Shown here: positions 12,236 through 63,275 of the stretch, piece after piece
Position numbering within the stretch: position 1 is the first letter of the stretch
Layout: each line of letters starts with the position of its first letter
Assembly: GCA_003574785.1 (NCBI GenBank)
Contig: QORU01000002.1
Location: 496,001 to 560,000, forward strand
Direction: 5' to 3'
Source: Taklimakanibacter deserti
GTDB lineage: Bacteria > Pseudomonadota > Alphaproteobacteria > Rhizobiales > Aestuariivirgaceae
Length of the DNA stretch: 64,000 nt
The notes under the pieces: model-generated
What the model was told of the DNA's origin: nothing
Seen by the model: only the letters and a program-made list of their open reading frames with translations
Database searches by the model: none
Position numbers and translations under genes: made by a program

Positions 12236-12262
12236 GGAACGGCGAGAGTGACAACTATGTCG
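12236..12262 (-). promoter_or_regulatory. Shared motif A upstream of the DUF899-DUF2182 operon
   Basis: Core GAGTGACAA at 12246-12254 (TTGTCACTC towards the gene), flanked on one side by GGAACGGC and on the other by CTATGTCG. The first core base is 66 bp from the DUF899 start codon. The same core occurs at 13669, 58775 and, degenerate, at 63256. This could be an activator site just upstream of a promoter or an alternative sigma-factor -35 region. Confidence 0.5.
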
Positions 12263-12290
12263 GGATTCCGATCTCCGCCGTTGCGTCAGC

Positions 12291-13034
12291 TCAGTGCGCA
12301 TGCGCTAGGCAGAGAACATCGCGATAGGCGCAGAGTTCCTCGATCAGCGCCTTCTCCTCGGCGAGGATTCTCGCCTTCTCCGCTGCGCCGATGAGCTGGA
12401 TCATATAGCTCTGCTCGGCATTGCCCTGCTTGTCGATGAAGGGATTGAGCAGGCTCTCAGGATTGTCGAGATCGGGCACGGCGCCGATGTCTTCATTGGT
12501 GGTGTAAGGCGCATAGAACATCAGATGCGGCATGGCCATGGTATGGACCTGCATGTCGGGAGGCCCGATCGTGCGCATGACCGGCCCGACCATGTAGGAC
12601 AGGCCGGGCTTTTCCGGCACCTTGTAGGTCTTGTCCTTGTAGCGCTTCTCGATCTCGGCCTTGAGCGCTGCGGGGCTCAAGCCTTGCGCGCGCAAGGTCG
12701 CCGCATCCATGATGTATTTCAAGTAGGTTTGCGTGCCTTGAGCGTCATAGCAGAGCGGAATGTAGATATCGTCGCGAAAGTCGGCGAGCTCCCAGGCGGT
12801 GCGCTGGACGATGCAGGCGACACCGTTCGTTCCCTGCCGGTGCAGCGTGTAGCCGCTCCCCGGATCGAGAAGATAGACACTCGCCTGGTCGCGCAAGGCC
12901 TTGGGCGCCGCGCTCAAGGCAAAGCGGGCTTCGAGCTCGGACGGCATCGGTGCCAGCGTCGTGTCGCTCGCCTTTACCGGGATAATGCCCGCAAGGCTCA
13001 AGGCGATGAGGGCCGTGACCCATTTGATGTTCAT
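12291..13034 (-). CDS. Exported protein of unknown family
   Basis: 247 residues. A Sec signal peptide (MNIKWVTALIALSLAGIIPVKA, cleavage about 22/23) precedes a soluble domain with SVYLLDPGSGYTLHRQGTNGVACIVQRT, GPVMRTIGPPDMQVHTMAMPHLMFYAPYT and a helical C-terminus ending in CAYRDVLCLAHAH. I do not recognise the family. Three cysteines remain in the mature part of the C-terminal and central regions. Start 13034 has a GGAG site and a clear signal peptide; the 13073 start overlapping the previous stop is less likely. It follows the AHSA1 gene at 13070-13603 in an apparent operon that carries motif B upstream. Confidence 0.75.
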   Translation of the reverse strand: MNIKWVTALIALSLAGIIPVKASDTTLAPMPSELEARFALSAAPKALRDQASVYLLDPGSGYTLHRQGTNGVACIVQRTAWELADFRDDIYIPLCYDAQGTQTYLKYIMDAATLRAQGLSPAALKAEIEKRYKDKTYKVPEKPGLSYMVGPVMRTIGPPDMQVHTMAMPHLMFYAPYTTNEDIGAVPDLDNPESLLNPFIDKQGNAEQSYMIQLIGAAEKARILAEEKALIEELCAYRDVLCLAHAH

Positions 13035-13069
13035 AGGTTTCTCCAGTTTGCGAGGGGTGTGTCGTTCGT

Positions 13070-13603
13070 TCATGCAGGGATGCGCCGTTCGTATTCCTGC
13101 CTGAGGCGGCTCCAGCCGTCCCAGAACGGTTCCGGCTCGCCGCCACTGGCGCGAGTGACCAGGATGTCGAGATGCATGTGCCAGCCGGCCGAGATCGCGA
13201 GCATGGTCTGGCGATCGCTTAGGCCGCGATGGGTGACGGTCAGCAGCACCTTGTGGTCATGGGGCGTCAGCGCGAAAGTCGCATCGCCGGTGCCGTCCCA
13301 GGCGATCGAGAGCCGGCGCGGCGGATCGAGCTCGGTGATGCGGCTCCTCATCCTGATCTCCTCCGGAAATCCGGCGGGGCGGCGCGGCGATGGCCCGGAA
13401 AGCTCGTCATTGCGCCAGACGAATTCGAAAGGCGCGTCGAGCTTCATCGCCATGGCACCCGCCGCCAGCCAGTGCCGGCGCAGGTCACTGTCGATGAGAA
13501 CGGCCCAGGCGCGCTCGATGGGTCCCGGCAACAAGCGCTCTATGGTGAGCGTCGCGGGCGCGGTCAGCATGCCATAGGCATTGCAAGGCGTGAGATCGTT
13601 CAT
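13070..13603 (-). CDS. SRPBCC/AHSA1-type protein
   Basis: 177 residues: TLTIERLLPGPIERAWAVLIDSDLRRHWLAAGAM, DAPFEFVWRNDELS and ELDPPRRLSIAWDGTGDATFALTPHDHKVLLTVTHRGL are the successive strands and ligand-pocket segments of the AHSA1 fold. The final helix is EPFWDGWSRLRQEYERR. It is divergent from the TPR/winged-helix regulator (start 13695), with motif B between them, and is first in an operon with the exported unknown protein. Ligand and reaction are unknown. Confidence 0.85.
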   Translation of the reverse strand: MNDLTPCNAYGMLTAPATLTIERLLPGPIERAWAVLIDSDLRRHWLAAGAMAMKLDAPFEFVWRNDELSGPSPRRPAGFPEEIRMRSRITELDPPRRLSIAWDGTGDATFALTPHDHKVLLTVTHRGLSDRQTMLAISAGWHMHLDILVTRASGGEPEPFWDGWSRLRQEYERRIPA

Positions 13604-13657
13604 GGGTCGTCTCCTTCCAGAGGCCGGGTGGTTGCCAGAAAGGATAACGGCGGCTAT

Positions 13658-13686
13658 CGAACCTCAGGGAGTGACAAGTGTGGCGG
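13658..13686 (-). promoter_or_regulatory. Shared motif B between AHSA1 gene and TPR/winged-helix regulator
   Basis: Core GAGTGACAA at 13669-13677, preceded by CGAACCTCAG and followed by GTGTGGCGG. The first core base is 66 bp from the AHSA1 start, exactly as for motif A. The right edge is only 9 bp from the regulator start codon at 13695, so binding here would also affect that gene. Confidence 0.5.
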
Positions 13687-13694
13687 CATTTTAG

Positions 13695-14915
13695 ATGGAC
13701 TCACTGATCACGGCTGCTGGGCGCGCCCTCGCCGCAGGTGATCCCCTGGGCGCGTTGAAGCGGGTCGCGCTGCGCGACGATGCGCCGGCGCTGGCGCTGC
13801 GCGGCATCGCGATGGCGCAACTCGGCGATCTCGATCGCGCCAAGGCGCTGCTCAAGCGGGCGGCACGCGCCTTCAGCCCGAAAGAGGCGGTGGCCCGCGC
13901 GCGCTGCATCCTCGCCGAGGCCGAGATCGCTCTCGCCGCGCGCGACCTCACCTGGGCACCCCAAGCGCTCGGCGGTGCGCGGGCGACGCTCGAGGCGCAT
14001 GGCGATAGAGTGAACGCCGCGCATGCGCGCTATATCGAGGTCCGGCGCCTCCTCTTGCTGGGACGGCTCGATGAGGCCGAGCGCCGGCTCGCGCTCCTCG
14101 ATCCGGCGCCCTTCCCGCCCGCTCTCTTGACTGCACATGAGCTGGTGGTCGCAGGCCTTGCGATGCGGCGTCTCAAGATAAAGACGGCGCGCGCGGCCCT
14201 CGCCCGGGCCCAAAGCGCCGCGCTGAAGGCGCGGATCCCGGCGCTCGCGGCAGAGGTCGAAAGCGCTGCGCGTCACATCGACACGCCCGCGGCACGTCTC
14301 ATCACCAAAGGCAAGGAACGGTTTCTCCGCCTCGATGAGGTGGAGGCGCTCTTCGCATCCAACGCGCTCGTCGTCGATGCCTGCCGGCATGCAGTGCGGG
14401 ACGCCAACACGGTGGTCTCGCTCGCGCGGCGTCCGGTGCTGTTCGCGCTCGCCCGGGCACTCGCCGAAGCGTGGCCCGAGGGTGCCCCGCGGGACAGGCT
14501 CATCGCCCGCGCCTTCGGCGGCAAGCATGCGGATGAATCGCATCGCGCGCGTTTGCGGGTCGAGATCGGAAGGCTGCGCCAAAAGCTGCGCAAGCTCGCA
14601 GAGGTGAGCGCCACGCCGCAAGGCTTTGCCCTCGTGCCACACATGACGCCTGAGGTCGTCGTGCTGGCGAGGCCGGTCGAGGAGCGGCATGCCGCGGTGC
14701 TCGCGTTCCTCGCCGATGGCGAATCCTGGTCGAGCTCGGCCCTGGCCCTGGCGCTGGGGGCCAGCCAGCGCAGCGTGCAGCGGGCGCTCGACCAGCTAGC
14801 GGAGGGCGGCAAGGTGCAGTTCTATGGCCATGGCCGGGCGCGCCGGTGGATGACCCCGCCGCTCCCCGGCTTCACGACAACCTTGTTACTCCCCGCCCCT
14901 CTGCCGAGCGACTAA
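13695..14915 (+). CDS. TPR-like protein with two C-terminal winged-helix domains (candidate local regulator)
   Basis: 406 residues. Residues about 1-200 are alanine-rich helical repeats resembling TPRs (GDPLGALKRVALRDDAPALALRGIAMAQLGDLDRAKALLKRAARAF and following). Residues about 235-315 look like an OmpR/PhoB-type DNA-binding domain (TVVSLARRPVLFALARALAE, then DRLIARAFGGKHADESHRARLRVEIGRLRQKL). Residues about 335-390 form a second winged helix (ERHAAVLAFLADGESWSSSALALALGASQRSVQRALDQLAEGGKVQFYGHGRARRW). No membrane segment or receiver domain is seen. No clear ribosome site precedes the start, which abuts motif B. A role as regulator of the motif-bearing genes is an inference. Confidence 0.75.
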   Translation: MDSLITAAGRALAAGDPLGALKRVALRDDAPALALRGIAMAQLGDLDRAKALLKRAARAFSPKEAVARARCILAEAEIALAARDLTWAPQALGGARATLEAHGDRVNAAHARYIEVRRLLLLGRLDEAERRLALLDPAPFPPALLTAHELVVAGLAMRRLKIKTARAALARAQSAALKARIPALAAEVESAARHIDTPAARLITKGKERFLRLDEVEALFASNALVVDACRHAVRDANTVVSLARRPVLFALARALAEAWPEGAPRDRLIARAFGGKHADESHRARLRVEIGRLRQKLRKLAEVSATPQGFALVPHMTPEVVVLARPVEERHAAVLAFLADGESWSSSALALALGASQRSVQRALDQLAEGGKVQFYGHGRARRWMTPPLPGFTTTLLLPAPLPSD

Positions 14916-14916
14916 A

Positions 14917-15582
14917 ATGGCCCCCATGAAACGATCAACTGCCGAAATCATTCGTGAATATGGCCCCTTTCCGGGTGTCGACGAGGTGCATGGCGTGACC
15001 TTCGATGGCGAGCATGTCTGGTTCGCGGTCGGCGAGACGCTGAATGCCCTCGACCCCGAGAGCGGCAAGACGGTGCGCTCGCTCGATGTCGCCGCGCATG
15101 CCGGAACCGCCTTCGACGGGCGCTACCTCTATCAGATCGCCGAGGACCGCATCCAGAAGATCGATCCCAAGACCGGCAAGGTGATGGCGACGATCCCGGC
15201 GCCGGGTGCGGGCGGCGATTCGGGGCTCGCCTGGGCCGAAGGCACGCTCTGGGTCGGCCAGTATCGCGACCGCAAGATCCATCAGATCGAACCCGAGACG
15301 GGCAAGATCCTGCGCACCATCGAGACCAACCGCTTCGTCACCGGCGTCAGCTGGATCGACGGCGAGCTCTGGCACGGCACCTGGGAAGGTGACGAAAGCG
15401 ATGTCCGGCGAATCGATCCCGAGACCGGCGAAGTGCTGGAACGCATCGACATGCCGCGCGGTACCGTCGTGTCTGGGCTCGAATCCGATGGCGGCGACCG
15501 CTTCTTCTGTGGCGGCGGTCCGAGCGGGAAGCTGCGCGCCATACGCCGGCTCAAGCGCGGCGCCAAGCTCAAGAAAAAATAG
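14917..15582 (+). CDS. Beta-propeller protein (Vgb/glutaminyl-cyclase-like NHL repeats)
   Basis: 221 residues built of about five repeats of the form GVTFDGEHVWFAVGETLNALDPESGKTVRSL, with recurring IDPKTGKV and IEPETGKI turns, as in Vgb-like and glutamine-cyclotransferase-like propellers. No signal peptide is present, so it is probably cytoplasmic. The starts at 14917 and 14926 (MKRST) are both possible. It begins 1 nt after the regulator's stop and is likely cotranscribed with it. Enzymatic activity is not evident. Confidence 0.75.
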   Translation: MAPMKRSTAEIIREYGPFPGVDEVHGVTFDGEHVWFAVGETLNALDPESGKTVRSLDVAAHAGTAFDGRYLYQIAEDRIQKIDPKTGKVMATIPAPGAGGDSGLAWAEGTLWVGQYRDRKIHQIEPETGKILRTIETNRFVTGVSWIDGELWHGTWEGDESDVRRIDPETGEVLERIDMPRGTVVSGLESDGGDRFFCGGGPSGKLRAIRRLKRGAKLKKK

Positions 15583-15595
15583 CCCTCATCACCTA

Positions 15596-15644
15596 GCGCA
15601 TGATCCGGAAAAGTGGATACCGGTTTTCCGAAAAGATCATGCGC
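15596..15644. repeat. Hyphomicrobiales-type intergenic palindrome
   Basis: Outer arms GCGCATGATC (15596-15605) and GATCATGCGC (15635-15644) are perfect complements. An inner pair, CGGAAAA and TTTTCCG, nests inside. From general knowledge, palindromes with this GCGCATGATC...GATCATGCGC frame are dispersed in many Hyphomicrobiales genomes. I find only this full copy in the window. Confidence 0.75.
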
Positions 15645-15656
15645 AAACAAAAGGAT

Positions 15657-15695
15657 AAAGCGCGATGGCGACTCGATGTAAAGCCATCGCGCTTT
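15657..15695. terminator. Bidirectional stem-loop between convergent genes
   Basis: A perfect 13-bp stem, AAAGCGCGATGGC (15657-15669) with GCCATCGCGCTTT (15683-15695), encloses a 13-nt loop. It lies between the ends of the convergent beta-propeller and FAD monooxygenase genes and overlaps the stop codon of the latter. A-rich and T-rich ends suit termination in both directions. Confidence 0.7.
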
Positions 15696-16941
15696 AGCGC
15701 CGGTTGACCTGCTCGCGACTGTAGCCCGCCATCGACGCATAGCCCTTCACGATCGCCTCGCGTTCGGCATGGCTTGCGACGGTTTCGATATCGTCGAAAC
15801 CGTGCGGCGCGCGGGCCTCGACCAGGTCGATGACGCCTTCCGGTCCGCCGCGGCGGTTGTTGCGCACGATGTCGGCGGTCATCGGCCGGCGCTCGGCATC
15901 ATAGGCGGTGAAGGCCGCCGCCACCTCCGGCGTCGCGGTCAGATGGCGCGTAAGGGCGGCGGCATCGAGGATGGCCTGGCTCGCGCCATTGCTGCCGACC
16001 GGATACATGGGATGCGCCGCATCGCCCAAGAGCGTCACCCGGCCAAAGGACCAGCAGGACACCGGATCGCGGTCGCAATTGGGGTATTCATAGAAGGTCC
16101 CGGTCGCCGTGATGATCTCGGCCGGGTCGACGAAGCCCAGCCTGAAACTGCCTTCGACGAAAGCGCGTGCATCTTCCAGCCGCCCGAGCGAATTCCAGTC
16201 CTCGCGGCGCGGCGGCGGTCCCTCATTGTCGGTGATGCGCGCCATCACCGCCCAGTTGGTCAGGCGCTGATCGGGGCGCGTCTTATCGAAATGGATCGGA
16301 TAGAAGACGAATTTTGCCGCATTGCCGCCGGCGATCACCATGGTGCGGCCATCCTCATGCACCGGCCAGTTGAGCGCGCCGCGCCACAGCATGATGCCGC
16401 TCCAGCGCGGCGGTCCTTCGTCCGGATAGAAGAAGCCGCGCACGCGCGAATGGATGCCGTCGGCGCCGATCAGCCCGTCGCCTGTGGCGGTGAAGCGCCC
16501 GCCTGCTGCGCGGCTTTCGAATTTTGCCGTGACGCGGCCGTCACGCTCTTCGACGTCGACCAGCCGGCGATCGGTATGAAGACGCGACGGACCGAGCCGC
16601 TCCATGACGGCGCGCAAGAGGACGCCGTGCAGCTTGCCGCGGTGGATGCTGAGCTGCGGCACTTCATAGCCCGCATCGAGGCCGCGCAATTCACGCCACA
16701 CCGCCTGGCCATGCCGGTTCAGATAGATCAGCTCGCGGGTGCGGATACCGGCTTCGTCGAGCGCCGGCAAAAGATCGAGCCCCGCCAACTCCTTCACCGC
16801 ATGCGGCAGCAGGTTGATGCCGACGCCAAGCTCGCGCAGCTCCTGCGACTGCTCGAAGACCTCGATATCGATGCCGGCCCGGTTGAGCGAGAGCGCCGTC
16901 GTGAGGCCGCCAATGCCGCCGCCGATAATCAGGAGCTTCAT
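15694..16941 (-). CDS. FAD-dependent monooxygenase (UbiH/PhzS-like flavoprotein hydroxylase)
   Basis: 415 residues. MKLLIIGGGIGGLTTALSL is the FAD ADP-binding fingerprint (GxGxxG at 7-12). LIGADGIHSRVRGFFYP (DG motif) and VTLLGDAAHPMYPVGSNGASQAILDAAAL (GD motif) complete the class A flavin monooxygenase set. These enzymes use NAD(P)H and O2 to hydroxylate aromatic substrates. The start at 16941 has AGGGAG upstream. It is followed on the same strand, 86 bp upstream, by a LysR gene that may control it. The substrate is unknown. Confidence 0.87.
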   Translation of the reverse strand: MKLLIIGGGIGGLTTALSLNRAGIDIEVFEQSQELRELGVGINLLPHAVKELAGLDLLPALDEAGIRTRELIYLNRHGQAVWRELRGLDAGYEVPQLSIHRGKLHGVLLRAVMERLGPSRLHTDRRLVDVEERDGRVTAKFESRAAGGRFTATGDGLIGADGIHSRVRGFFYPDEGPPRWSGIMLWRGALNWPVHEDGRTMVIAGGNAAKFVFYPIHFDKTRPDQRLTNWAVMARITDNEGPPPRREDWNSLGRLEDARAFVEGSFRLGFVDPAEIITATGTFYEYPNCDRDPVSCWSFGRVTLLGDAAHPMYPVGSNGASQAILDAAALTRHLTATPEVAAAFTAYDAERRPMTADIVRNNRRGGPEGVIDLVEARAPHGFDDIETVASHAEREAIVKGYASMAGYSREQVNRR

Positions 16942-17027
16942 CCATATCTCCCTGGTTGGAGAATGTCCCGTGCCGTGGCCCTTGCCGATTGTACAGGGAT
17001 GGACATCGATCTCAAGCTGACGGGCCG

Positions 17028-17948
17028 TCACCTGGCGCTCGTTCGTCCCCGCGGGCCGGTCGAGCGTTTGAGGAAGTCGACGAAGGCGCGCACGCTCGGC
17101 GCGGTGTAGCGCTGTTTTGGATAGCACAGGTACCAGCCGGGAAAGTTCCCGCACCACTCTTCGAGGAGCGGGACAAGCTTGCCCTGATCGATCAGTGAGC
17201 GCAGAAGCCCCTCCGCCCGGAATGCGAGTCCGACACCCTGGACCGCGGCGGTAACGGCCATGGCGCGATGCGAGACGATGAGCGGTCCGTCGACGGTGAC
17301 GGAAAACCATCGGCCGTTCTTCACGAACTGCCATTTGTACAGGCCGGGACTTCCCGGCTGACGCCAATTGATGCAGCGGTGGCGGAGCAGATCGGCCGGC
17401 TCGCGCGGGCGTCCATGGCGAGCGATGTAGTCCGGAGAGCCGACGACGATTTCACGCTGATCGCCGCCGAGCTTGACGGCGACCATGTCGGCTTCGAGAG
17501 ATTCACCGAGCCGAACGCCGACGTCATAGCCAGCCTCGACAATGTTGGGGACGGAATCATCGACCGTCACATCGAGAACAACATCCGGATATGCCGCATG
17601 AAACTTGCCGAGAACCGGCTCGAGAAAGGCGGCGGCAGGAGCATTGGGCACATGCACCCGCAACATTCCGGCCGGCCTGTCGCGCGAACTCACGGCATCC
17701 TGAACCGCTGCCTCCATCTCCATCATCGCCGGCTTGAAGCGCGCGTGGAGGCGCTCGCCGGCGTCGGTCAAGGAGAGGCTGCGCGTCGTGCGATTCAACA
17801 GACGCATGCCTAGGCGTTTTTCCAGCTCGCCGATCGTACGGCTGAGCGCCGATGCCGAAATGCCGAGTTCCGCCGCGGCCCGGGCGAAATTGCCATGCCC
17901 GACCACCGTCACGAATGCTTTCAGCTCGGCGTAATCGCTACCGCGCAT
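17028..17948 (-). CDS. LysR-family transcriptional regulator
   Basis: 306 residues with the N-terminal winged helix (GNFARAAAELGISASALSRTIGELEKRLGMRLLNRTTRSLSLTDAG, about 19-63) and the CrgA/DmlR-like effector domain (HGRPREPADLLRHRCINWRQPGSPGLYKWQF). It is upstream of the FAD monooxygenase on the same strand and divergent from the GNAT gene, with two palindromes at 17969-18003 between. Either neighbour could be the target. Confidence 0.92.
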   Translation of the reverse strand: MRGSDYAELKAFVTVVGHGNFARAAAELGISASALSRTIGELEKRLGMRLLNRTTRSLSLTDAGERLHARFKPAMMEMEAAVQDAVSSRDRPAGMLRVHVPNAPAAAFLEPVLGKFHAAYPDVVLDVTVDDSVPNIVEAGYDVGVRLGESLEADMVAVKLGGDQREIVVGSPDYIARHGRPREPADLLRHRCINWRQPGSPGLYKWQFVKNGRWFSVTVDGPLIVSHRAMAVTAAVQGVGLAFRAEGLLRSLIDQGKLVPLLEEWCGNFPGWYLCYPKQRYTAPSVRAFVDFLKRSTGPRGRTSAR

Positions 17949-17968
17949 TGTGCCTCGGAATCACAGGA

Positions 17969-18003
17969 ATGTATTTGAATTGTACATCATTGTCTCCACA
18001 ATG
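17969..18003. promoter_or_regulatory. Two adjacent palindromes in the LysR/GNAT divergent gap
   Basis: ATGTA-N9-TACAT (17969-17987) is followed directly by CATTGT-CTCC-ACAATG (17988-18003), both with perfect arms. They begin 21 bp upstream of the LysR start codon, the usual location of a LysR autoregulatory region. Confidence 0.55.
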
Positions 18004-18095
18004 TGCGGGCGCCAATCTACGGGGGCATTCAGCGGAAGTGAAACGAAATGCGCTGTTTCTCCCGCGCGAAGGCAGATCTGAGACAGGAGCCAGCC

Positions 18096-18815
18096 ATGCG
18101 TGAAGCCGCGCGTTTCATTGCCAGCCAGACTGAGCCCGCGCAAGATGGAACCCTGCTGCGCTTCGTCTATGCCGCCCTCGGTTCCCGGCCCGGCAAGCGG
18201 GCCGGATCCAATGACGATCTGCTCTGGCACGTCTCTGCGACGTGTCCGCGGCGGCTGGCTTCGACAGTTCCCATCCCCTTCCCTCAGGCGCGTTTCAGGC
18301 AATCCGAAATCGCGACCCTGATCGATGCGGCGCCTATTGCCGATCTCGTAAACGCAGCCTATCGGGGCGCCGGCGGCCGCCTCGGATGGATCCACGAGGC
18401 AAAGTTGCTCGCCGGTGACCGCGCCAGTTTGCGAGATGTTGTGGCCATGATCGACGACGTCTCGACAACCGTGTTGGTCCGACGTGGCGGCAGATCATCG
18501 GCATTGCTCGGCTGTGTCGCCATCCAGATGGATGGCGCGGATCGTTGCGTGATCTCGATGCTGGCCGTCGATCCGGAACTTCAGTCCGCCGGACTTGGTC
18601 GCGCCCTGCTCGCCGATGCCGAGCAGTTCGCAGCAAGCAACGGCGCGCGAAGCGCCGTGATGACGGTGATACGGCAACGGCAATCGCTCATCGCCTGGTA
18701 TGAGCGTTGTGGCTACCACCGAACCGGTGCCGTTGCTTTTCCCTATGGCGCCAGCAAGGTCGGCACGCCGCTGCGCGACGATCTTGACTTCGTCATCCTC
18801 GAAATGGCTCTGTGA
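18096..18815 (+). CDS. GNAT-family N-acetyltransferase with unusual N-terminal extension
   Basis: 239 residues. The acetyltransferase domain starts near residue 70 (FRQSEIATLIDAAPIADLVNAAYRG) and has the acetyl-CoA loop LAVDPELQSAGLGRALLADAEQFA (motif A, Q/RxxGxG/A) and LIAWYERCGYHRTGA near the end. Residues 1-68 (MREAARFIASQTEPAQDG onward) are not part of the usual fold and I do not recognise them. The start at 18096 is supported by AGGAGCC 8 nt upstream. Substrate unknown; the next gene is an exported cyclase 47 bp downstream. Confidence 0.75.
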   Translation: MREAARFIASQTEPAQDGTLLRFVYAALGSRPGKRAGSNDDLLWHVSATCPRRLASTVPIPFPQARFRQSEIATLIDAAPIADLVNAAYRGAGGRLGWIHEAKLLAGDRASLRDVVAMIDDVSTTVLVRRGGRSSALLGCVAIQMDGADRCVISMLAVDPELQSAGLGRALLADAEQFAASNGARSAVMTVIRQRQSLIAWYERCGYHRTGAVAFPYGASKVGTPLRDDLDFVILEMAL

Positions 18816-18862
18816 AGCCACGCCGGCGACGTCCCGCAGGCGACCAACCGAAAGGAGAAGTC

Positions 18863-19786: not shown

Positions 19787-19871
19787 CATCGGCGAGCGCT
19801 GAAACATGCTGCGCCGGGAACGCGATCACCGCGACCCTCGCGCCCCTCGCGCAGCTTGTCGAGGAGGGAAC

Positions 19872-53239: not shown

Positions 53240-53246
53240 ACGAACC

Positions 53247-54659
53247 ATGGCCAAGACTTTCCAGCTAAAGCTCGATCGCTCCGCCAAGACGCCGCTCGCC
53301 GAGCAGATACGCAAGGCGATCGGCGGGGCAATCGAGAGCGGCGTGCTGGCGCCGGGGGCGCGGCTCCCCTCCTGGCAGGACCTCGCCGCCCAGCTCGGGG
53401 TCGCGCGCGGCACCGTGCGCACCGCCTATGAAAGGCTGTCCGCGGCGCAGCTCATCGTGGCCTCGCGCGCGACCGGGACCCATGTCGCCGAGCGGCCGCG
53501 CCCCCTCGCCCGCGCCGAGCCGCCGCCCGATCCCGGCTCCTTCATGGAAATGTATCAGGAGATGAACCGTGGACCGGCCGTCTTCCAGATGGGGGTGCCG
53601 GCGGCGGAGATCTTTCCGGCCACACTCTTCGCGCGCATCCGCGCCCATGCCGTGCGCGCCGAAGCGGGCGCGGCGCTCGTCTATCCGGATGCGCGCGGCG
53701 AGCTCGAGTTTCGCCGCGAGATCGCCGCCTATCTCGCCATCGCCCGCGGCATCGACTGTTCGCCGGCGCAGGTCATCATCACCTCGGGCTTCGCCGGCGG
53801 GCTCGGATTGGCGCTCCGGGCGCTCGGGCTCGAAGGCGCAAAGGCCTGGATGGAGGAGCCGGGCTTTCCCTTCACCCGCCGCGCCATCGAGCTCGCGCGC
53901 TTGTCGTTGGCCCCCATACCGGTCGATGCCGGCGGCATCGATGTCGATCACGGGCTGGCGCAGGCGCCGGACGCCAAGCTGGTGGTCGTAACGCCAGGCC
54001 AGCAGGCGCCGCTCGGTGTCACTCTGTCGCTCGAACGGCGCCTGCGCCTCCTCGATTGGACGGCGCAAGAGGGCGCGTGGGTGATCGAGGACGACTATCT
54101 GAGCGAGCTGCAGCTCAAGGGCCGCGCGGCGCCGGCGCTCGCCTCGCTCGATCGCGATGGCCGCGTCATCCATATCGGCTCGTTCAGCAAGACCATCAGC
54201 CCCACTTTGCGGCTGGGCTTCCTCGTCGCACCCCTGCCGCTCCTCTCGCGCTTTTCGGAAGTCGCGGCCTGTCTCGCGCCGGCGCCCGGTCCTTCGGTGC
54301 AGCTGGCGACCGCCGAGTTCATGCGCGATGGCCACTATATCCGCCATCTGCGGCGCACCAAGCGGGCCTATGCGGCGAAGCGCGACGCGTTGCTCGACGG
54401 CCTTCAGGCAGAGGTGAAAACTCGCGGCGTCACGATAGCGGGATTGTCGGCCATCCTGCCTTTGCCCGACGGCGTGCCGGATGTGGCCATCGCCCGCGAG
54501 ACCTTTGCCTTCGGCATGGCGCCCGTCCCCTTGTCGGCCTGCTATAAGCGGCCGGCCGCGGGGCGATCGGGTCTCCTTCTCGGCATCGCGACGGTGCCGC
54601 AGAAGCATCTGGCGCGCTCCTGCGACCGTCTCATCGAGATCATCGAGCGTTTCATCTGA
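53247..54659 (+). CDS. MocR/PdxR-type regulator (GntR winged helix fused to aminotransferase domain)
   Basis: 470 residues. Residues 1-80 are a GntR winged helix (TPLAEQIRKAIGGAIESGVLAPGARLPSWQDLAAQLGVARGTVRTAYERLSAAQLIVASRATGTHV). The rest is a class I aminotransferase-like domain; Lys315 in IGSFSKTISPTLRLG is the pyridoxal-phosphate Schiff-base lysine. No ribosome site precedes the ATG. It probably regulates the divergent cupin-AhpD-like operon; the ligand is unknown. Confidence 0.9.
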   Translation: MAKTFQLKLDRSAKTPLAEQIRKAIGGAIESGVLAPGARLPSWQDLAAQLGVARGTVRTAYERLSAAQLIVASRATGTHVAERPRPLARAEPPPDPGSFMEMYQEMNRGPAVFQMGVPAAEIFPATLFARIRAHAVRAEAGAALVYPDARGELEFRREIAAYLAIARGIDCSPAQVIITSGFAGGLGLALRALGLEGAKAWMEEPGFPFTRRAIELARLSLAPIPVDAGGIDVDHGLAQAPDAKLVVVTPGQQAPLGVTLSLERRLRLLDWTAQEGAWVIEDDYLSELQLKGRAAPALASLDRDGRVIHIGSFSKTISPTLRLGFLVAPLPLLSRFSEVAACLAPAPGPSVQLATAEFMRDGHYIRHLRRTKRAYAAKRDALLDGLQAEVKTRGVTIAGLSAILPLPDGVPDVAIARETFAFGMAPVPLSACYKRPAAGRSGLLLGIATVPQKHLARSCDRLIEIIERFI

Positions 54660-56552: not shown

Positions 56553-56741
56553 GGCATTTCCTCCCCGACCTGACTCGCGAGCCGCGCAACGGCCCTCGCT
56601 CCGCCGGGGCGGCGGCGCGGCTCTTTCTCCAACCATATGAAACGCCGTGCGTTGCGAGTGGTTCCACGCGCTCACCGGCGCGGATCGCAAAACAATGAAT
56701 GCCCGCCCAACCTAGGTATCATCTTCCAGCCTTCTGGGGTT

Positions 56742-56864
56742 TCAGGCCTGACGCGCCACCAGCTCGGCGTACCGCTGCAGATACAGCGGCCAGCCTTGAT
56801 CGCCGGCAACACCGTCGCGCACGCTTTCCCAACCTTCGACGTGTCCTTTTACATGCGTGCTCAT
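56742..56864 (-). pseudogene. C-terminal remnant of an AHSA1 (SRPBCC) gene
   Basis: A 40-codon frame, MSTHVKGHVEGWESVRDGV then AGDQGWPLYLQRYAELVARQA, equals the last helix of AHSA1 proteins (HxEGWxxxxDGxxGxxGWPxYLxRYxxL). The N-terminal 110 or so residues are missing. Its ATG overlaps the stop of the ArsR remnant (ATGA), as in the intact pair at 9715-10499. Confidence 0.7.
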
Positions 56865-57130
56865 TGCGACTTCTCCGGTGGTTGCTCGACGGCGAGCTTG
56901 TAGGCCGCGAGCGTCTTGCTCCAGAACCGGTCGAGTTCCGCGCGAAGGCGCGCCAGCCCCTCGGGATCGACCCGGTAGATGCGTTGCTTTCCGGCCCGCA
57001 TGTCGACCACGAGACCGGCATCCTTGAGCACCTTCAGGTGCTGCGAGACCGCCGGCCGGCTCACCGGCAGGGCACGAGCCAGTTCGCCGACCGAGCACGG
57101 ATGCTCGCTCAGCCGCTCGAAGATCGTGCG
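56861..57130 (-). pseudogene. ArsR regulator truncated at its N-terminus
   Basis: The open frame reads RTIFERLSEHPCSVGELARALPVSRPAVSQHLKVLKDAGLVVDMRAGKQRIYRVDPEGLARLRAELDRFWSKTLAAYKLAVEQPPEKSQ, a complete ArsR except that the usual first 13 or so residues (up to DPTRR) are lost. A TGA stop lies directly before RTIF (57131-57133), and the upstream DNA belongs to the alpha/beta hydrolase tail. A shorter product could start at an internal ATG, but its first helices would be missing. Confidence 0.75.
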
Positions 57131-57167
57131 TCAACCTTGTCCGATGCGCTTCACTGCGGGCTTCGTT

Positions 57168-57938
57168 CTACTCCTCGCCGACAGCGCGGGCCGCTTTTTC
57201 GATGACGCGCGCAACCGCCTCGGGCTCAGAGATGTAGACCAGGTGGCTGCCCTTGATCTCGGTTATCTGGGCGCCCGAGCGCTCATACATCCAGCGTGCA
57301 AGCTTGGGATTGAGCGCCCTATCCTCGGTGGCGATGATCCCGTAGCTCGGCTTGTCGCGCCAGGCGGCGACCGTCGCCGGCGCATCGAAAGCGGCGGCGG
57401 CCACCGGCGTCTGTGCGTTCGCCATGTAGCCTGCCAGCGCCGGCGGCAGATCGGCCGCGACGTCGGCAGCGAATTTGGCCGAGTCGACGAAGATGAAGCC
57501 GTCCTTGGTCAGCTTCAGGTCGCTCGCCGGCACCTCTCCCGGCATCGACGAGGCGAGCCCGCTGGTCGTTTCGCCTATGTCGGGCTGCACCGCCGCGACA
57601 TAGACCAGCGCCTTGACCTTGGGATCCGCGCCCACAACCGTGATGATGGCGCCGCCATAGCTGTGGCCGACGAGGATGACCGGTCCTTCCTGCCGGTCGA
57701 GGACGCGTTTCGTCGCCGCCACATCATCGGCGAGGCCGGTGAGCGGCTGCTGGACCACGCTCACGCGGTACCCGTCCTTTGTCAGAATGTCATAAACGCC
57801 GCGCCATCCCGAACCGTCGGTATTGGCGCCATGCACGAGCACGATGTTTTTCGCCGGCGACCCGGCTTCGGCAGCCGGGCCGATGACGAGTACTATGACC
57901 GCGAAGACAATGCCGAGCGCCAATCCCATGGTCCTCAT
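57168..57938 (-). CDS. Exported alpha/beta hydrolase (copy 2)
   Basis: 256 residues. Signal peptide MRTMGLALGIVFAVIVLVIGPAAEA, oxyanion region NIVLVHGANTDGSGWRGVYDIL, nucleophile Ser93 in GHSYGG, and KGSHLVYISEPEAVARVIEKA with the catalytic His. Clearly paralogous to the gene at 46953 (same length and order). It lies 14 bp downstream of DUF899 copy 2 on the same strand, so it is the second gene of that operon. Confidence 0.88.
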   Translation of the reverse strand: MRTMGLALGIVFAVIVLVIGPAAEAGSPAKNIVLVHGANTDGSGWRGVYDILTKDGYRVSVVQQPLTGLADDVAATKRVLDRQEGPVILVGHSYGGAIITVVGADPKVKALVYVAAVQPDIGETTSGLASSMPGEVPASDLKLTKDGFIFVDSAKFAADVAADLPPALAGYMANAQTPVAAAAFDAPATVAAWRDKPSYGIIATEDRALNPKLARWMYERSGAQITEIKGSHLVYISEPEAVARVIEKAARAVGEE

Positions 57939-57951
57939 CGTCTGACGGGCC

Positions 57952-58701
57952 TCAGCAGCATGAAGCGGCGGCCGTTCCCGGCTCATAACGGTCGTGGTGG
58001 CGCACCCACTCCATCTTGTGATCGACGTCGCGTTCGTCGCGGCCCTTGGGCATGAGGTCGAGCATGTTATAGGTGCCCATCATCACTTCCACGCCGCGCG
58101 CATAGGTCGAATAGCTGTGGAAGACATCGCCCGCATCATCCTTGATGAACGCGCTGATGCCGGGCAACTCCTCTTCATTATGGGGCGAGGTGCCGTAATT
58201 GTAGCCGATAGCGCCTTTGGCCACCTCTTCCGGCGTGAAGCTGACGCCGAAATCATAGTTGAAGTCGCTCTCATGCGACGACACCCAGGTGAACTGCCAG
58301 CCCATGCGCCGGCGGAAGCGCTCGATCTCGGCGAGAGGTGCGCGCGAGACGGCGACGAACGTGACGTCGCGCTCCGCCAGGTGGGCCGTCATGCCGTCGC
58401 TGTGATCGGCCATATAGGAGCAGCTCGGGCAGCCTTCCTCCCATCCGGGGCCGAGCATGAAGTGCTGCACCAGGAGCTGGCGGCGGCCGTCGAACAGCTC
58501 GGCCAGCGTGCGCCGGCCGTCCGGCGTCTCGAAAACATAATCCTTGTCGATGCGCACCCAGGGCAGCGCGCGGCGCTCGCGGGCGACCTGATCTCTGAGG
58601 CGCATCGCTTCCTTCTCGCGCGCCAGGAGCTTCTTGCGTTCGGCGATCCATTGCACCCTGGGAAGGACACGATGGTTCCCGGTGTTCGTCATATTGGTCA
58701 T
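57952..58701 (-). CDS. DUF899 thioredoxin-like family protein (copy 2)
   Basis: 249 residues: WIAERKKLLAREKEAMRLRDQVARERRALPWVRIDKDYVF, LAELFDGRRQLLVQHFMLGPGWEEGCPSCSYMADHSDGM and FHSYSTYARGVEVMMGTYNMLDLMPKGRDE. The thioredoxin-like site is CPSC. A C-terminal Cys-Cys pair (AAASCC) is unusual and absent from copy 1. Followed by the exported hydrolase in one operon. Motif C lies upstream. Confidence 0.88.
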   Translation of the reverse strand: MTNMTNTGNHRVLPRVQWIAERKKLLAREKEAMRLRDQVARERRALPWVRIDKDYVFETPDGRRTLAELFDGRRQLLVQHFMLGPGWEEGCPSCSYMADHSDGMTAHLAERDVTFVAVSRAPLAEIERFRRRMGWQFTWVSSHESDFNYDFGVSFTPEEVAKGAIGYNYGTSPHNEEELPGISAFIKDDAGDVFHSYSTYARGVEVMMGTYNMLDLMPKGRDERDVDHKMEWVRHHDRYEPGTAAASCC

Positions 58702-58764
58702 GGCTTCGCCTCCTTCGTCTCGCTGCTCTCACCGTCTCACACGAGAACACTTAAGGCGGAACCC

Positions 58765-58791
58765 GGAACGGCGGGAGTGACAAATGTGACG
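58765..58791 (-). promoter_or_regulatory. Shared motif C upstream of DUF899 copy 2
   Basis: Core GAGTGACAA at 58775-58783, preceded by GGAACGGCG and followed by ATGTGACG, nearly identical to motif A over 20 bp. It is 74 bp from the DUF899 start and sits in the gap just after the cupin stop. Confidence 0.5.
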
Positions 58792-58794
58792 TGA

Positions 58795-59280
58795 TTACCG
58801 TTCAGTCGGCGGCAGCTCGATCGTCACGCCATATTTGGCGCCGATGGCGATGAGCTTGGCGAAATCCGGCGTGCCTTGGATATGGGCGGCTTCGAATTCG
58901 GCGAACATCTGGTCGAGGCCGACGCTGGGCGCGCTCAGGATCAGCACGCGGGCAGGCTTGTCGCCCAGATTGCGGACCGCATGGCGCACGCCCCGTGCGC
59001 CGAAGAAGAAGCCGCCGGGTGCCACGCGCTGGGGCGCCGTTCCGCCCTCGAAGTCGAAGGTGAGCTCGCCCTCCAGCACATAGAAGGCTTCATCTTCCCG
59101 CGAATGGGTGTGCGGCGGCGCGCCCGAGCCCGGCGGGAGCACCGCTTCCCAGAGCGAGAAGGATCCGCCTGTCTCGGCAGCGGTCGCCTTGTAGAGATGG
59201 GTGACGCTGAGGAAACTGATCGTGGACCCGGCATTGGGCGCTCGCACGAAGGATCGGGCTGCCGCGGCTTTGTCATCCAT
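58795..59280 (-). CDS. Cupin-domain protein, ectoine/quercetinase-like
   Basis: 161 residues: FLSVTHLYKATAAETGGSFSLWEAVLPPGSGAPPHTHSREDEAFYVLEGELTFDFEGG then GGFFFGARGVRHAVRNLGDKPARVLILSAP are the two cupin motifs with His-x-His and downstream His ligands. Start 59280 has GGAG upstream. Directly upstream of DUF899 copy 2 (93-bp gap, containing motif C). Confidence 0.85.
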   Translation of the reverse strand: MDDKAAAARSFVRAPNAGSTISFLSVTHLYKATAAETGGSFSLWEAVLPPGSGAPPHTHSREDEAFYVLEGELTFDFEGGTAPQRVAPGGFFFGARGVRHAVRNLGDKPARVLILSAPSVGLDQMFAEFEAAHIQGTPDFAKLIAIGAKYGVTIELPPTER

Positions 59281-59365
59281 GGTCGGTCTCCATTGTGTGT
59301 TCCTCGTCACCGCTCGAGTATAATCAGATTTTGTGGCGCAAGATGAGCCGGCGAAAGGCTATTGC

Positions 59366-60151
59366 ATGAGCGAACAGAAAATCCGTTTCGATGATGGTGC
59401 GGCCTATGAGCAGATGATGGGGATCTGGAGCGGGCTTGCGGGAAAAACCTTCCTCGACTGGCTGGCGCCGCCCAAAGCTTTGCGCTGGATCGATGTGGGC
59501 TGCGGCAACGGCGCCTTCACCGAGCTCCTGGTCGAGAACTGCGCCCCCTCGGAGGTTCAGGGCATCGACCCCTCGGAAGGACAGCTCGCTTATGCCCGCA
59601 CCCGTCCGGGCGCGCGCCTGGCGGAATTCCGCCTCGGCGATGCGATGGCGCTTCCTTTCCCCGCCGACAGGTTCGATGCCGCCATCATGGCGCTCGTCCT
59701 CGTCTTCGTGCCGGAGCCGGCGAAAGCTGTCGCGGAAATGCTGCGCGTGGTGCGGCCGGGCGGCATCGTCGCGGCCTATATGTGGGATATGCCGGGTGGC
59801 GGCTTTCCCTTGGAACCGCTCCTCATCGAGATGCGCGCCATGGAGATCACGGCGCCACGCCCCCCGCAAAGGGAGGCATCGCGCATGGAGGCGATGCTGG
59901 ATTTGTGGAACGGGGCGGGGCTCGAGAACGTCGAGACGCGCGAGATCACCGTGCACCGGACCTTCGCCGATTTCGACGACTGGTGGATGACCGGCATGAA
60001 GTCGCCCTCGCTTGGCCCCACCATCGCGGCGCTCTCCCCGCAAGACCACGCTGCGCTCAAGAGCCGGGTGCGCGCGCGCCTGCCCGCGGCGAGCGACGGG
60101 CGGATCACCTATGCCGCGCGCGCCAATGCGATCAAAGGATCGAGGAGTTGA
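59366..60151 (+). CDS. Class I SAM-dependent methyltransferase
   Basis: 261 residues. LRWIDVGCGNGAFTELLVENC (motif I, about 39-59), IDPSEGQLAYA, FRLGDAMALPFPADRFDAAIMALVLVFVPEPAKAVAEMLRVVRPGG are the UbiE/Methyltransf_11 motifs. The substrate is unknown. The GFA gene follows 3 nt later and is likely cotranscribed. Start 59366 (MSEQKI). Confidence 0.88.
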   Translation: MSEQKIRFDDGAAYEQMMGIWSGLAGKTFLDWLAPPKALRWIDVGCGNGAFTELLVENCAPSEVQGIDPSEGQLAYARTRPGARLAEFRLGDAMALPFPADRFDAAIMALVLVFVPEPAKAVAEMLRVVRPGGIVAAYMWDMPGGGFPLEPLLIEMRAMEITAPRPPQREASRMEAMLDLWNGAGLENVETREITVHRTFADFDDWWMTGMKSPSLGPTIAALSPQDHAALKSRVRARLPAASDGRITYAARANAIKGSRS

Positions 60152-60154
60152 GCC

Positions 60155-60595
60155 ATGACCGACGCGACGAGGACGGCCACCTGCCGCTGCGGACAGCTCA
60201 CGGCTGAATGCACCGGCGAGCCGGTGCGCGTGTCGGTGTGCCACTGCCTCGATTGCCAGAAGCGCTCGGGCAGCGCCTTTGCCGTCCAGGCGCGCTGGCC
60301 GGAGGACCAGGTTCGGGTTACGGGCGAAGCGAAGATTTGGGAGCGCGTCGCCGACAGCGGCCATCGCGCCACCTATCGCTTCTGTCCCCAATGCGGATCG
60401 ACCGTCACCTATGTGATCGAAGGCTGGCCGGGTCTCGTCGCCGTGCCGCTCGGCGCCTTCGCCAATCTCCAATTTCCAAAGCCCCGCTTCTCCGTCTACG
60501 AGCATCGCAAGCATGACTGGGTCGCGATCGTCGGCGACGACATCGAGCATTCATCGACGCCCGGCGTCCCGCGCATGCCGGACCATCGCCACTGA
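60155..60595 (+). CDS. GFA-family zinc protein (copy 3)
   Basis: 146 residues with CRCGQLTAECTGEPVRVSVCHCLDCQKRSGSAFA and RFCPQCGSTVTYVIEG. The GGHCGA start of the family reads TCRCGQL here. Cotranscribed with the methyltransferase. Role unproven, as for the other two copies. Confidence 0.87.
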   Translation: MTDATRTATCRCGQLTAECTGEPVRVSVCHCLDCQKRSGSAFAVQARWPEDQVRVTGEAKIWERVADSGHRATYRFCPQCGSTVTYVIEGWPGLVAVPLGAFANLQFPKPRFSVYEHRKHDWVAIVGDDIEHSSTPGVPRMPDHRH

Positions 60596-60598
60596 GGC

Positions 60599-62209
60599 TT
60601 AGGAGGGACGCGCGAAGATCCGTCCGAAATATTGGGCCAGGCCCGGTGATCGCCAGGACGCGCCGCGCCAGCCAATGTATCCGTCCGGCCGCACCATGAC
60701 GGCGCGAGCATCGCTTCCATAGGCTTTGGCGAATCCGCCCTCGGCGTCGAGATAACCGGGGAGCTGCGGCATGTCGGGCACCGCCGTCCGGGTGATCGCC
60801 GCGGCACGAACCGATGGTCCCCATTGCTTTCGCAGATCACGCGCAAAGGCGGCCGCATCATCCGTTTGCGCCCGATCGTCGATCTGGATCAGCAGGACGT
60901 GGCCGGTTCCCTTGATGATGTCGAACAGGCGCAGCGGAAAGCCGAAGCCCGACCGGACCAATCCCTGCACATCGGGCGCGCGGTCGCCGGCCAAAGGTCC
61001 GTCCGTCGCCAAGGACGGCTCGTCGGCGACGAAGGGCGTGCCGCGATAGGAGACCAGGATCTGCGTGTCGGCCAGGCGGTCGGGCGCCTTGCCTTTCTCG
61101 CGGCCGTAATTCTCGCTCGCCGCCTGGGTGCGCTTCACCACATCGGCGCCGACCGGGCGGCGTTCGGCATCATAGCTGTCGAGCAGCTCGCTGCGGCCTG
61201 AGCCCTGCACCACCAGCGCCAGCTTCCAGGCGAGATTGTAGGCGTCCTGGATGCCGGTGTTCATGCCCTGCCCGCCGGTCGGGGGATGGATATGGGCGGC
61301 ATCGCCCGCGATGAAGGCGCGGTCCTTGCGGTACTCGGACGCCAGCCGCATGCTGATACGGAAGACCGACGACCAGCGCAGGTCGGAGAGCTTTGGCTTG
61401 GCGGGAACCATATCGTCGGCAACGGCCTGCAGGTCGGAAAGCGACGGCCCTTTCAACTCGGCCTGGATGCCGTGTTCCGTGCCGCCTTCCGGATTGAGCG
61501 AGGCCGGCGCCAGCATGGAAACGCGATATCGTCCGGCCTCCGGTAGCGGAATGGCGATGAACATGTCGGGCGGCCCATCTGGCCTCGGCCTTACCGCCCG
61601 GAACGCCATGCCGTAAGGAAGATCCCAGGCGATGTGCACGTCGCCCAGCATGAAAGGCCAGGGATAAGCCTCGCCGTCGAAACCGATGTCGAGCGCCTTG
61701 CGCACCGCGCTATGAGCGCCGTCGCAGCCCACGACATAGCTGAAGCGCGCCTCTTCCGTCGCCCCCTCCCCCTTGCGCAGCGTGACGGCGACGCCGTTGC
61801 TGTCCTGCGTCAAGGCGACGAGCTCGGTGCCGCGTTCGATGTCCCCGCCGAGATTTTGAAGATGCTCGGTCAGCAGGCGTTCCGTCTCGTATTGGGGCAG
61901 GCCCAGCTGGGCGAAGGGCAGGCCGAGCGGCGGCGCAACAACTTCCTGCGCCGGCTTGCCATCTATCACCGAACGCAAGCCCGTGATCCACAGCCCGCTG
62001 TCGATCATCTCGCGCACGATGCCCATATCCTCCCAGACTTCGAGCGTGCGCGGCGTGACGCCGATGGCGCGGCAAAAGGGAAGCGCCTCTTGAGCGCGGT
62101 CGATCAGGCGGCAGCGCACCCCATGGCGCCTGAGCTCGCTCGCCATGGTCAGTCCCACAGGACCCGCGCCCACGACGAGGATTGGTTTTTGCGTGCTGTC
62201 ACTGGACAT
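60599..62209 (-). CDS. FAD-dependent aromatic monooxygenase (PheA/TfdB/MhpA family)
   Basis: 536 residues. PILVVGAGPVGLTMASELRRHGVRCRLIDR is the FAD fingerprint (GAGPVG at 14-19); VVGCDGAHSAVRKALDI is the DG motif; RAFIAGDAAHIHPPTGGQGMNTGIQDAYNLAWKLALV is the GD motif. A thioredoxin-like C-terminal domain follows (about 400-536). Hydroxylates phenolic substrates with NAD(P)H and O2. Tail-to-tail with the GFA gene. GGGGGAAG precedes the start. Confidence 0.9.
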   Translation of the reverse strand: MSSDSTQKPILVVGAGPVGLTMASELRRHGVRCRLIDRAQEALPFCRAIGVTPRTLEVWEDMGIVREMIDSGLWITGLRSVIDGKPAQEVVAPPLGLPFAQLGLPQYETERLLTEHLQNLGGDIERGTELVALTQDSNGVAVTLRKGEGATEEARFSYVVGCDGAHSAVRKALDIGFDGEAYPWPFMLGDVHIAWDLPYGMAFRAVRPRPDGPPDMFIAIPLPEAGRYRVSMLAPASLNPEGGTEHGIQAELKGPSLSDLQAVADDMVPAKPKLSDLRWSSVFRISMRLASEYRKDRAFIAGDAAHIHPPTGGQGMNTGIQDAYNLAWKLALVVQGSGRSELLDSYDAERRPVGADVVKRTQAASENYGREKGKAPDRLADTQILVSYRGTPFVADEPSLATDGPLAGDRAPDVQGLVRSGFGFPLRLFDIIKGTGHVLLIQIDDRAQTDDAAAFARDLRKQWGPSVRAAAITRTAVPDMPQLPGYLDAEGGFAKAYGSDARAVMVRPDGYIGWRGASWRSPGLAQYFGRIFARPS

Positions 62210-62275
62210 GGTCTTCCCCCGGTTATCCGCGCCTAGCCTCATCGACCATAGCAGGCACCGATAGAGCTGACGACC

Positions 62276-63208
62276 CTATGCCGCCACCGGCGCCGGCGGG
62301 GTGATGGCGATCGCGAAGGGCTTGTTGCCGACCGTGATCTCCGCCACGACCTTGTTGGTGGCGGTGGCGATGACCGAAACAATGTTCGATGTCGCGGCGG
62401 CATTCGTCACATAGGCATGTTTCCCGTCGGCGGTGATCGCCACGCCGAAAGGCTCCGCCCCCACGGGAATCGTGGCCGATACCGTGTTGCCGGCGGTATC
62501 GATCACCGACACGTTGCCCGCGCCATGATTGGTCACATAGGCGTGTTTGCCGTCGGGCGTGACGGCCACGCCGACCGGGTCGGCGCCCACGGCGACCGTG
62601 GCCGATACGCTGTGGGCCTGGGTGTCGATCACCGAGACCGCATTGGCGCCGCCATTCGTCAGATAGGCTTTCTTGCCATCCGGGCTCAAAGCTATTCCCC
62701 GTCCCGTCGTGCTGGTGGAGCCCTTGGGGACCTGGATGGTGGCCACCACCGTGTTGGTGCTCGTGTCGATCACCGTGACGCCTTGGAAACTCGTCACATA
62801 GGCGTGCTTGCCGTTCGGCGCGACGGCCACATCGATCGAATTGTCCATGTCGATCGTGGCCGTCACCTGGCTGGTCGCGGTGTCGAGCACCTTGACGGCG
62901 TGGTCATTGCCGGAATTGGCGATATAGGCGTGCTTGCCGTCGCGGGTCAGCGCAATGCCGGCGATGAAGAAATCCGTCACATCCGGGATCGTCTCCGTGA
63001 CGGTGTTGGTGGCGGTGTCGAGCACCGAGACGAAGGAGCCGGTCGCGGTCTGCCGGCTCGTGATAAAGGCGCGTTTGCCATTGGGGGTCAGCGCCACGCG
63101 GATGGGTGCCCCGGTCGTCGCGGGCGTGGCCACCACCAGGTTGGTCGCGAGATCGATCACCGAGACAGTGCCAGAACCCGTATTCGTCACATAGGCGAAC
63201 GGTGCCAT
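62276..63208 (-). CDS. YVTN-repeat seven-bladed beta-propeller protein (YncE-like)
   Basis: 310 residues, no signal peptide, made of seven similar blades such as FAYVTNTGSGTVSVIDLATNLVVA and GVAVTPDGKHAYVTNHGAGNVSVIDTAGNTVSATI. Blades are highly alike, suggesting recent internal duplication or selection for symmetry. Function unknown; YncE of E. coli binds DNA weakly. AGGAGG precedes the start at 63208. Degenerate motif D lies upstream. Confidence 0.88.
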   Translation of the reverse strand: MAPFAYVTNTGSGTVSVIDLATNLVVATPATTGAPIRVALTPNGKRAFITSRQTATGSFVSVLDTATNTVTETIPDVTDFFIAGIALTRDGKHAYIANSGNDHAVKVLDTATSQVTATIDMDNSIDVAVAPNGKHAYVTSFQGVTVIDTSTNTVVATIQVPKGSTSTTGRGIALSPDGKKAYLTNGGANAVSVIDTQAHSVSATVAVGADPVGVAVTPDGKHAYVTNHGAGNVSVIDTAGNTVSATIPVGAEPFGVAITADGKHAYVTNAAATSNIVSVIATATNKVVAEITVGNKPFAIAITPPAPVAA

Positions 63209-63243
63209 TTTGAAACACCTCCTGTGATTTGCGAATGACATTA

Positions 63244-63275
63244 GGCGCGGCGAGAGAGTGATACTTACGTGGCGG
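63244..63275 (-). promoter_or_regulatory. Degenerate shared motif D upstream of YVTN propeller gene
   Basis: Core GAGTGATAC (63256-63264), two differences from the GAGTGACAA core, preceded by GGCGAGA and followed by TTACGTGGCGG, the latter shared with motif B. It is 48 bp upstream of the start, nearer than in the other three cases. Weakest member of the set. Confidence 0.35.

Follow-up and report, generated by a model that had tools for sequence, protein, structure and literature searches.

A conserved operator-like element and its candidate regulator at DUF899 operons of Taklimakanibacter deserti

Why do several separate operons in one stretch of the Taklimakanibacter deserti genome carry the same short sequence ahead of their first genes? 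The stretch (contig QORU01000002.1, positions 496,001 to 560,000; hereafter the window, 64,000 nt) had been examined in a sequence-only reading, which listed four copies of a motif and proposed a regulon. Comparison with other genomes suggested that the motif is very likely the operator of a single regulon, under class II activation by a protein encoded beside one of the copies (13695..14915, plus strand, 406 aa), for which a tetratricopeptide repeat (TPR)-like domain and two winged helices are predicted. The regulon is real as far as the comparison reaches. The element recurred in other genomes, in the same orientation and at a similar distance, upstream of DUF899 operons and of AHSA1, GFA and other genes, and it co-occurred with one regulator, as the proposal of a regulon would have it.

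The element in the window and in other genomes

We found the core GAGTGACAA at four places in the window; 100 shuffles gave a mean of 0.23 and a maximum of 2. Three copies lay where they had been reported, all on the plus strand: site A (12241..12267, core 12246-12254), site B (13664..13690, core 13669-13677) and site C (58770..58796, core 58775-58783). They are copies of a conserved element of 22-27 bp with the consensus GGGAGTKACAAGTGTGRCGGGATT. The reported distances to the start codons, 66, 66 and 74 bp, and 48 bp for the fourth reported copy, held with starts at 12180, 13603, 58701 and 63208. The fourth core copy in our count was a different one, on the minus strand at 6739-6747 (site E, 6726..6752). 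It lay 48 bp ahead of a dehydrogenase gene, in the same gene-relative orientation as A, B and C.

Relatives of the regulator gene gave a set of 85 loci, made up of the best 80 of 547 such loci and 5 plasmid loci from 76 records. In 74 of the 85, a loose anchor found a block with the consensus no more than 90 nt ahead of the regulator start; two distances accounted for most of these blocks. A matrix of the 39 distinct forms from these 74 loci, built from other genomes only (the window-free matrix), ranked C (40.0 bits), A (34.4 bits) and B (30.5 bits) above every other place in the window. Among 20 Markov shuffles, the highest score was 8.2 bits. A matrix restricted to the 31 loci whose record titles assigned them to Beta- and Gammaproteobacteria (20 distinct sites) gave 37.7, 31.4 and 32.8 bits for C, A and B.

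A further model, R1, was made from 27 of the 39 forms. It scored C at 27.2, B at 24.9 and A at 19.6 bits, followed by 12.8 bits for a copy inside the regulator gene (site F, see below), 12.7 bits for E and 4.9 bits for the next place. Among 28 further genomes, the R1 scores left a gap between 21.8 and 15.8 bits. Site E, which scored 13.2 bits with the window-free matrix and 23.2 bits in a two-half scan, reads as TTGTCACTC towards the dehydrogenase gene at 6796. We regard E as a likely member of the set.

The fourth copy of the sequence-only reading, at 63256 (site D, 63254..63279, plus strand, GAGTGATAC), was not supported as a member. It scored less than 4 bits in the fixed-spacing matrix and, unlike A, B, C and E, had no TA at the shared offset. 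With two extra spacer bases it reached 10.0 bits; the best of 25 shuffles reached 9.5 bits, and another place, 50545, scored 14.0 bits. Relatives of the propeller gene downstream of D were not found at E 1e-30 in 150 genomes. The original list of four sites stood for A, B and C, lost D, and had missed E and F.

The wider pattern GAGTGAYAM added two places in the window: D, and position 54016, which falls within a GntR-aminotransferase gene. Place 50545, with its altered spacing, and place 13148 (10.8 bits) were taken as chance matches. The latter (13148-13174) falls within the AHSA1 gene and precedes the following gene of that operon. Positions 63291-63788 encode a 165-aa protein without a Pfam match, of which 71% identical relatives are present in loci L009, L023 and L136, in the last of these near a DUF899 site.

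When six genomes or records were searched with a pattern, each regulator had one site, and five of the six carried one more; all five extras precede DUF899. In a set of 196 loci, 135 distinct places scored at least 17 bits. A regulator start stood no more than 150 nt away from 87 of these, and 15 fell in the 3' end of a regulator gene. Among the remaining 33, DUF899 was present within 1.6 kb downstream of 31; one site had an AHSA1 gene (L188) and one had no recognised gene (L114). When the two sites from loci fetched for DUF899 were left out, the proportion was 29 of 31. Eight of the 33 share a locus with a regulator. In the window itself, the same element stands ahead of several operons beyond chance.

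DUF899 was also downstream of 69 of the 87 regulator-adjacent sites. Nine of the 87 had no target recognised in the gene comparison; among these, L069, L083 and L184 carry AHSA1 and L075 carries DUF4440. The genes that accompany the targets are DUF2182, GFA and a small membrane protein. This protein is about 84-113 aa long, shows the pattern APTFAxMALLT...MYLLMSAFHLxPWL and is found with DUF899 in L007, L129, L004 and others. No Pfam family was reached at cut-off by the two copies scanned, and the idea that it is a shortened DUF2182 was rejected (profile comparison probability 0.1%).

With DUF899 genes as most of the targets, the shared block might be a repeat, or a recent duplication, by which DUF899 copies are spread. 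We consider this extremely unlikely. The block also precedes the unrelated AHSA1, GFA, glyoxalase and DUF4440 genes, and from 5 to 21 nt past CTC the conservation is far below that of the block (<0.9 bits).

Promoter geometry and the candidate regulator

Among 115 distinct intergenic sites, TANNNT followed TTGTNACTC at offset 21 in 27 sites and at offset 22 in 42 (69 in total). No further offset carried TANNNT in more than 8% of the sites. In the window, TA stood at offset 21 in C (TAAGTG) and at offset 22 in A (TAAATC), B (the -10-like TATCCT) and E (TATCAC); D had none. The offset of 21-22 puts the block at about -55 to -35, which is the place of class II activator sites.

The sequence-only reading had suggested either an activator site or the -35 element of an alternative sigma factor. 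The fixed orientation and the fixed distance to a -10-like box would suit the sigma factor. On the other hand, TTGTMA and TANNNT are 24-25 nt apart, outside the alternative-sigma -35/-10 spacing of about 17 nt (16-18 nt), and the conserved block of about 22 bp is longer than a -35 element. TANNNT resembles the housekeeping -10, and the companion gene, with its predicted winged helices, is unlike a sigma factor gene. We judged the sigma element very unlikely, and the other genomes backed the activator. In the activation that we propose, the regulator would bind CCCGYCACACTTGTMACTCCC, which spans about -55 to -35 in each target promoter. The bound site would overlie a poor -35 region, 21-22 nt from the TANNNT -10 box, and RNA polymerase would be recruited.

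The candidate regulator gene is divergent from the AHSA1 gene, with site B between them. B reads as TTGTCACTC towards the AHSA1 operon, and its end is 4 nt ahead of the regulator start. Because B ends just ahead of this start codon, it would probably also limit the synthesis of the regulator. The sequence-only reading had drawn no connection between the motif and this gene.

The protein has at least 8000 homologues, and none of the Pfam and NCBIfam scans made gave a match at cut-off. An AlphaFold2 model predicted a TPR-like N-terminal domain (about residues 1-195), an OmpR/PhoB-like winged helix (about 200-325), a second winged helix (about 326-385) and a low-confidence tail (386-406). The mean predicted local distance difference test score (pLDDT) was 78.9 for the whole protein. 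Foldseek with the whole model gave no match at E 0.001, and TPR proteins (MalT domain III and Rap among them) filled its rows. For this reason we folded the DNA-binding part on its own (mean pLDDT 90.5) and searched with it.

This search listed the OmpR-type domains of CovR (TMt 0.75, E 0.014, outside the top rows), VanR, PrrA and RstA, and also MarR-, ArsR- and Z-alpha-type winged helices, all with weak E-values. The sequence compared with solved structures gave a single chance-level match (E 0.79). No receiver domain family was found in Pfam up to E 0.1, and the N-terminal model is all-helical and TPR-like. We interpreted the protein encoded beside site B as very probably the regulator of the regulon. 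Its inducing signal may be a ligand of the TPR-like domain.

The co-occurrence of site and regulator was scanned in 150 genomes from each of two orders, that of G002 (the genome of Bradyrhizobium locus L004) and that of G003 (a Paraburkholderia genome). Filtering in these large scans was stricter, at the cost of weak matches. In the G002 order, the regulator was present in 26 genomes and the site in 22, all of them within the 26; none of the 124 genomes without the regulator had a site (Fisher p 1e-22, a statistic that takes genomes as independent, which they are not). Twenty-one of the 29 sites in this order adjoin the regulator. The other eight, in six genomes, comprise seven beside DUF899 and one before an AHSA1 gene (L188). 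All six genomes with such a distant site are among the 26 (p 2e-5, on the same footing); a site in G118, 808 bp from the regulator, was counted as distant. DUF899 was present in 47 of the 150 genomes, 24 of them with the regulator, which leaves 23 genomes that have DUF899 and neither regulator nor site. In the G003 order, the regulator was found in eight genomes and the site in two, both with the regulator. The element is conserved elsewhere and tied to one regulator, more weakly in the G003 order.

It might be asked whether another transcription factor binds the element, with the gene at 13695-14915 merely its most conserved target. Binding by the encoded protein is our reading of the comparison, and five of six G003-order regulator genes whose upstream regions were read lacked the site. 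Against this stand the joint presence of site and regulator in 22 of 22 site-bearing genomes of the G002 order and 2 of 2 of the G003 order, and the two winged helices in the modelled product. A site between a regulator gene and a divergent target is also usual for a regulator that is encoded there. We regard another factor as improbable, and prefer the protein encoded beside B.

Besides the dependence among genomes mentioned above, a number of points weigh against the assignment of the regulon to this protein. Eleven of the 85 loci did not match the loose anchor, and TANNNT was missing from both common offsets in 46 of the 115 intergenic sites. The training set of R1 consisted of regulator-adjacent sites and included that of G002. 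Four of the 26 regulator genomes of the G002 order had no model hit, yet GAGTGACA was seen by eye at -25 in all four. In the G003 order just two of the eight regulator genomes were hit, and of the six upstream regions from this order among the 15 read across both orders, the one that was not without a site had a degenerate form.

The fold and family evidence includes a weak match to Pfam Trans_reg_C, below cut-off (E 0.011), and the top Foldseek rows of the DNA-binding part were the winged helices of ScpB and ESCRT-II. As for E, none of 25 dehydrogenase relatives (39-65% identical) had an equivalent site upstream, and four genomes with close dehydrogenase relatives encode the regulator yet lack the dehydrogenase site. 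Loose support for E came from three Mesorhizobium loci (L039, L044 and L065), in which a 39% identical dehydrogenase lies behind a site-bearing DUF899 gene.

A probable site in the last codons of the candidate regulator gene

Site F (14870..14896, minus strand) lies inside the regulator gene and reads towards a propeller gene downstream. It scored 15.0 bits with the window-free matrix and 18.7 bits in the two-half scan. Its core, TTGTTACTC at 14883-14891 of the plus strand, forms codons 397-399. A -10-like box, TAAAAT (14913..14918, plus strand), follows 21 nt after the core and overlaps the stop codon of the regulator.

All 85 aligned regulators, one from the window and 84 relatives, had TTG, TTA and CTC as the three leucine codons. 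Across 221 conserved columns, no codons were more biased than TTA and TTG at this place. TTA is rare elsewhere in the regulator genes: there were 122 among 5,062 leucine codons, and 80 of these were at site F (by a stricter LLLP pattern). The operator core was kept in 98 of 102 distinct 3' ends; three had one base changed and one was cut off. The cores kept include those of G003-order copies without an upstream site and of copies down to 55% identity.

The box was conserved as well. TANNNT, made by the stop codon, was present at offset 21 after site F in 69 of 83 distinct relatives. The stop was TAG in 76 of the 85 loci, TAA in 7 and TGA in 2, compared with 21%, 17% and 62% in a background of 854 other long open frames of the same loci, spurious frames included. 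The two loci with TGA (L052 and L074) still had TAGGAT, at offset 22.

The conservation of TTG-TTA-CTC might come from the protein or from a feature of the mRNA, such as translational coupling, instead of a binding site. The invariance of the three leucines and the closeness of the 3' end to the next start codon would fit this. On the other hand, the codon bias falls on TTA and TTG, and the nine bases are identical to the operator core. The flanking letters and the -10 offset of F agree with the intergenic sites, and the box was retained in the two TGA loci. A protein or mRNA origin is unlikely on this evidence. The tail encoded at site F had a pLDDT below 50, which fits selection on the DNA and not on structure.

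We interpreted site F and its box as probably a promoter for the propeller gene (beta-propeller protein, 218 aa, 14926..15582, plus strand, with the start picked by likeness to relatives). Transcription of this gene would start from F by way of the -10 box made by the stop codon. The start codon at 14926 is seven bases after the box, which suggested a leaderless message; the propeller transcript in the window is possibly of this kind. The gap is longer in many relatives. In two annotated loci, L083 and L084, the regulator gene is followed by a propeller relative, and relatives were found in 119 loci.

Two observations concern the 3' end in other loci. In L063 (Chelativorans salis, about 11190-11260), which was excluded from the alignment, the regulator frame has no stop and runs in frame into the propeller gene, through a fusion or a sequence error. 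In five loci of the G003 order (L178 and L180-L183, 55-61% identity), the upstream site was absent and TTGTTACTC was kept in the 3' end in all five; in several of them a TAGCCT- or TAGGCT-like box precedes the start codon by about 6 nt, an arrangement seen in leaderless genes.

Target genes and relation to known systems

The genes under A are DUF899 (11392..12180, minus strand; PF05988, E 8e-96) and DUF2182, with the Pfam name PpoB2 (10586..11395, minus strand; PF09948, E 3e-49). Under B are an AHSA1/SRPBCC protein (13070..13603, minus strand; PF08327, E 2e-12) and a 247-aa protein without a Pfam family (12291..13034, minus strand), a 67% identical relative of which is the direct target under a regulator-adjacent site in L050. 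Under C are a second DUF899 (57952..58701, minus strand; PF05988, E 2e-96) and an alpha/beta hydrolase (57168..57986, minus strand; PF12697, E 1.5e-24). The gene under E encodes a zinc-type dehydrogenase (6796..7842, plus strand; PF00107 and PF08240). The core targets would be the DUF899 operons, with AHSA1, DUF2182 and GFA added and, in this genome, perhaps a dehydrogenase.

To our knowledge, no role has been settled for the families DUF899 and DUF2182. DUF899 showed AhpC-TSA matches in Pfam, below cut-off, and a passage in PMC3091736 places it in the thioredoxin-like clan. The response might have a role in detoxification or redox processes. A redox role is a lead taken solely from the thioredoxin-like nature of DUF899, and a copper role one taken solely from the Pfam name of DUF2182.

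With an operator and a regulator defined, DUF899, DUF2182, the AHSA1 proteins and the propeller would be tied into one switchable response that can be studied. A search of the openly available literature, with most subscription papers outside its scope, returned no description of the motif strings, of a DUF899 regulon, of DUF899 with DUF2182, or of DUF2182. For sites inside coding sequence, nothing close was found by title.

More broadly, the protein may represent a widespread, uncharacterised family of one-component activators with a TPR-like sensor, in which two different winged helices read an asymmetric 22-bp site. The promoter of the next gene would be hard-coded in the last codons and stop of the activator gene, so that amino-acid sequence, operator and -10 box form one conserved stretch across several bacterial classes. 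This broader proposal could equally prove right or wrong.

Among known systems, OmpR/PhoB-type activators bind where the element lies, and the model of the middle domain resembles, with weak E-values, the DNA-binding domains of CovR, VanR, PrrA, RstA and KdpE. The differences are that no receiver domain was found, that a TPR-like N-terminal domain and a second winged helix are predicted instead, and that the two half-like elements of the site are 9 bp apart in our own reading, compared with 10-11.

The actinobacterial activators of the SARP/AfsR type also join a TPR-like helical domain to an OmpR-type winged helix in one chain, and AfsR was among the Foldseek rows. SARPs have the OmpR-type domain at the N-terminus, followed by the bacterial transcriptional activation domain. 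The model of our regulator has the two domains in the opposite order, with a second winged helix besides, and no Pfam match to the bacterial transcriptional activation domain was seen up to E 0.1.

MalT, PlcR, NprR and Rap share the TPR-like domain (N-terminal in our regulator), which may sense a ligand. Their DNA-binding domains and domain order differ from those of the regulator. TPR folds are common, and nothing about function follows from the match.

Promoters and operators inside coding sequence are a known kind, in which a regulatory site lies within the upstream gene. Here, the site is in the last codons and the stop of the very regulator that would bind it, and it is kept down to 55% identity. 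If true, this would be a clean natural case of overlapping information for protein, operator and promoter.

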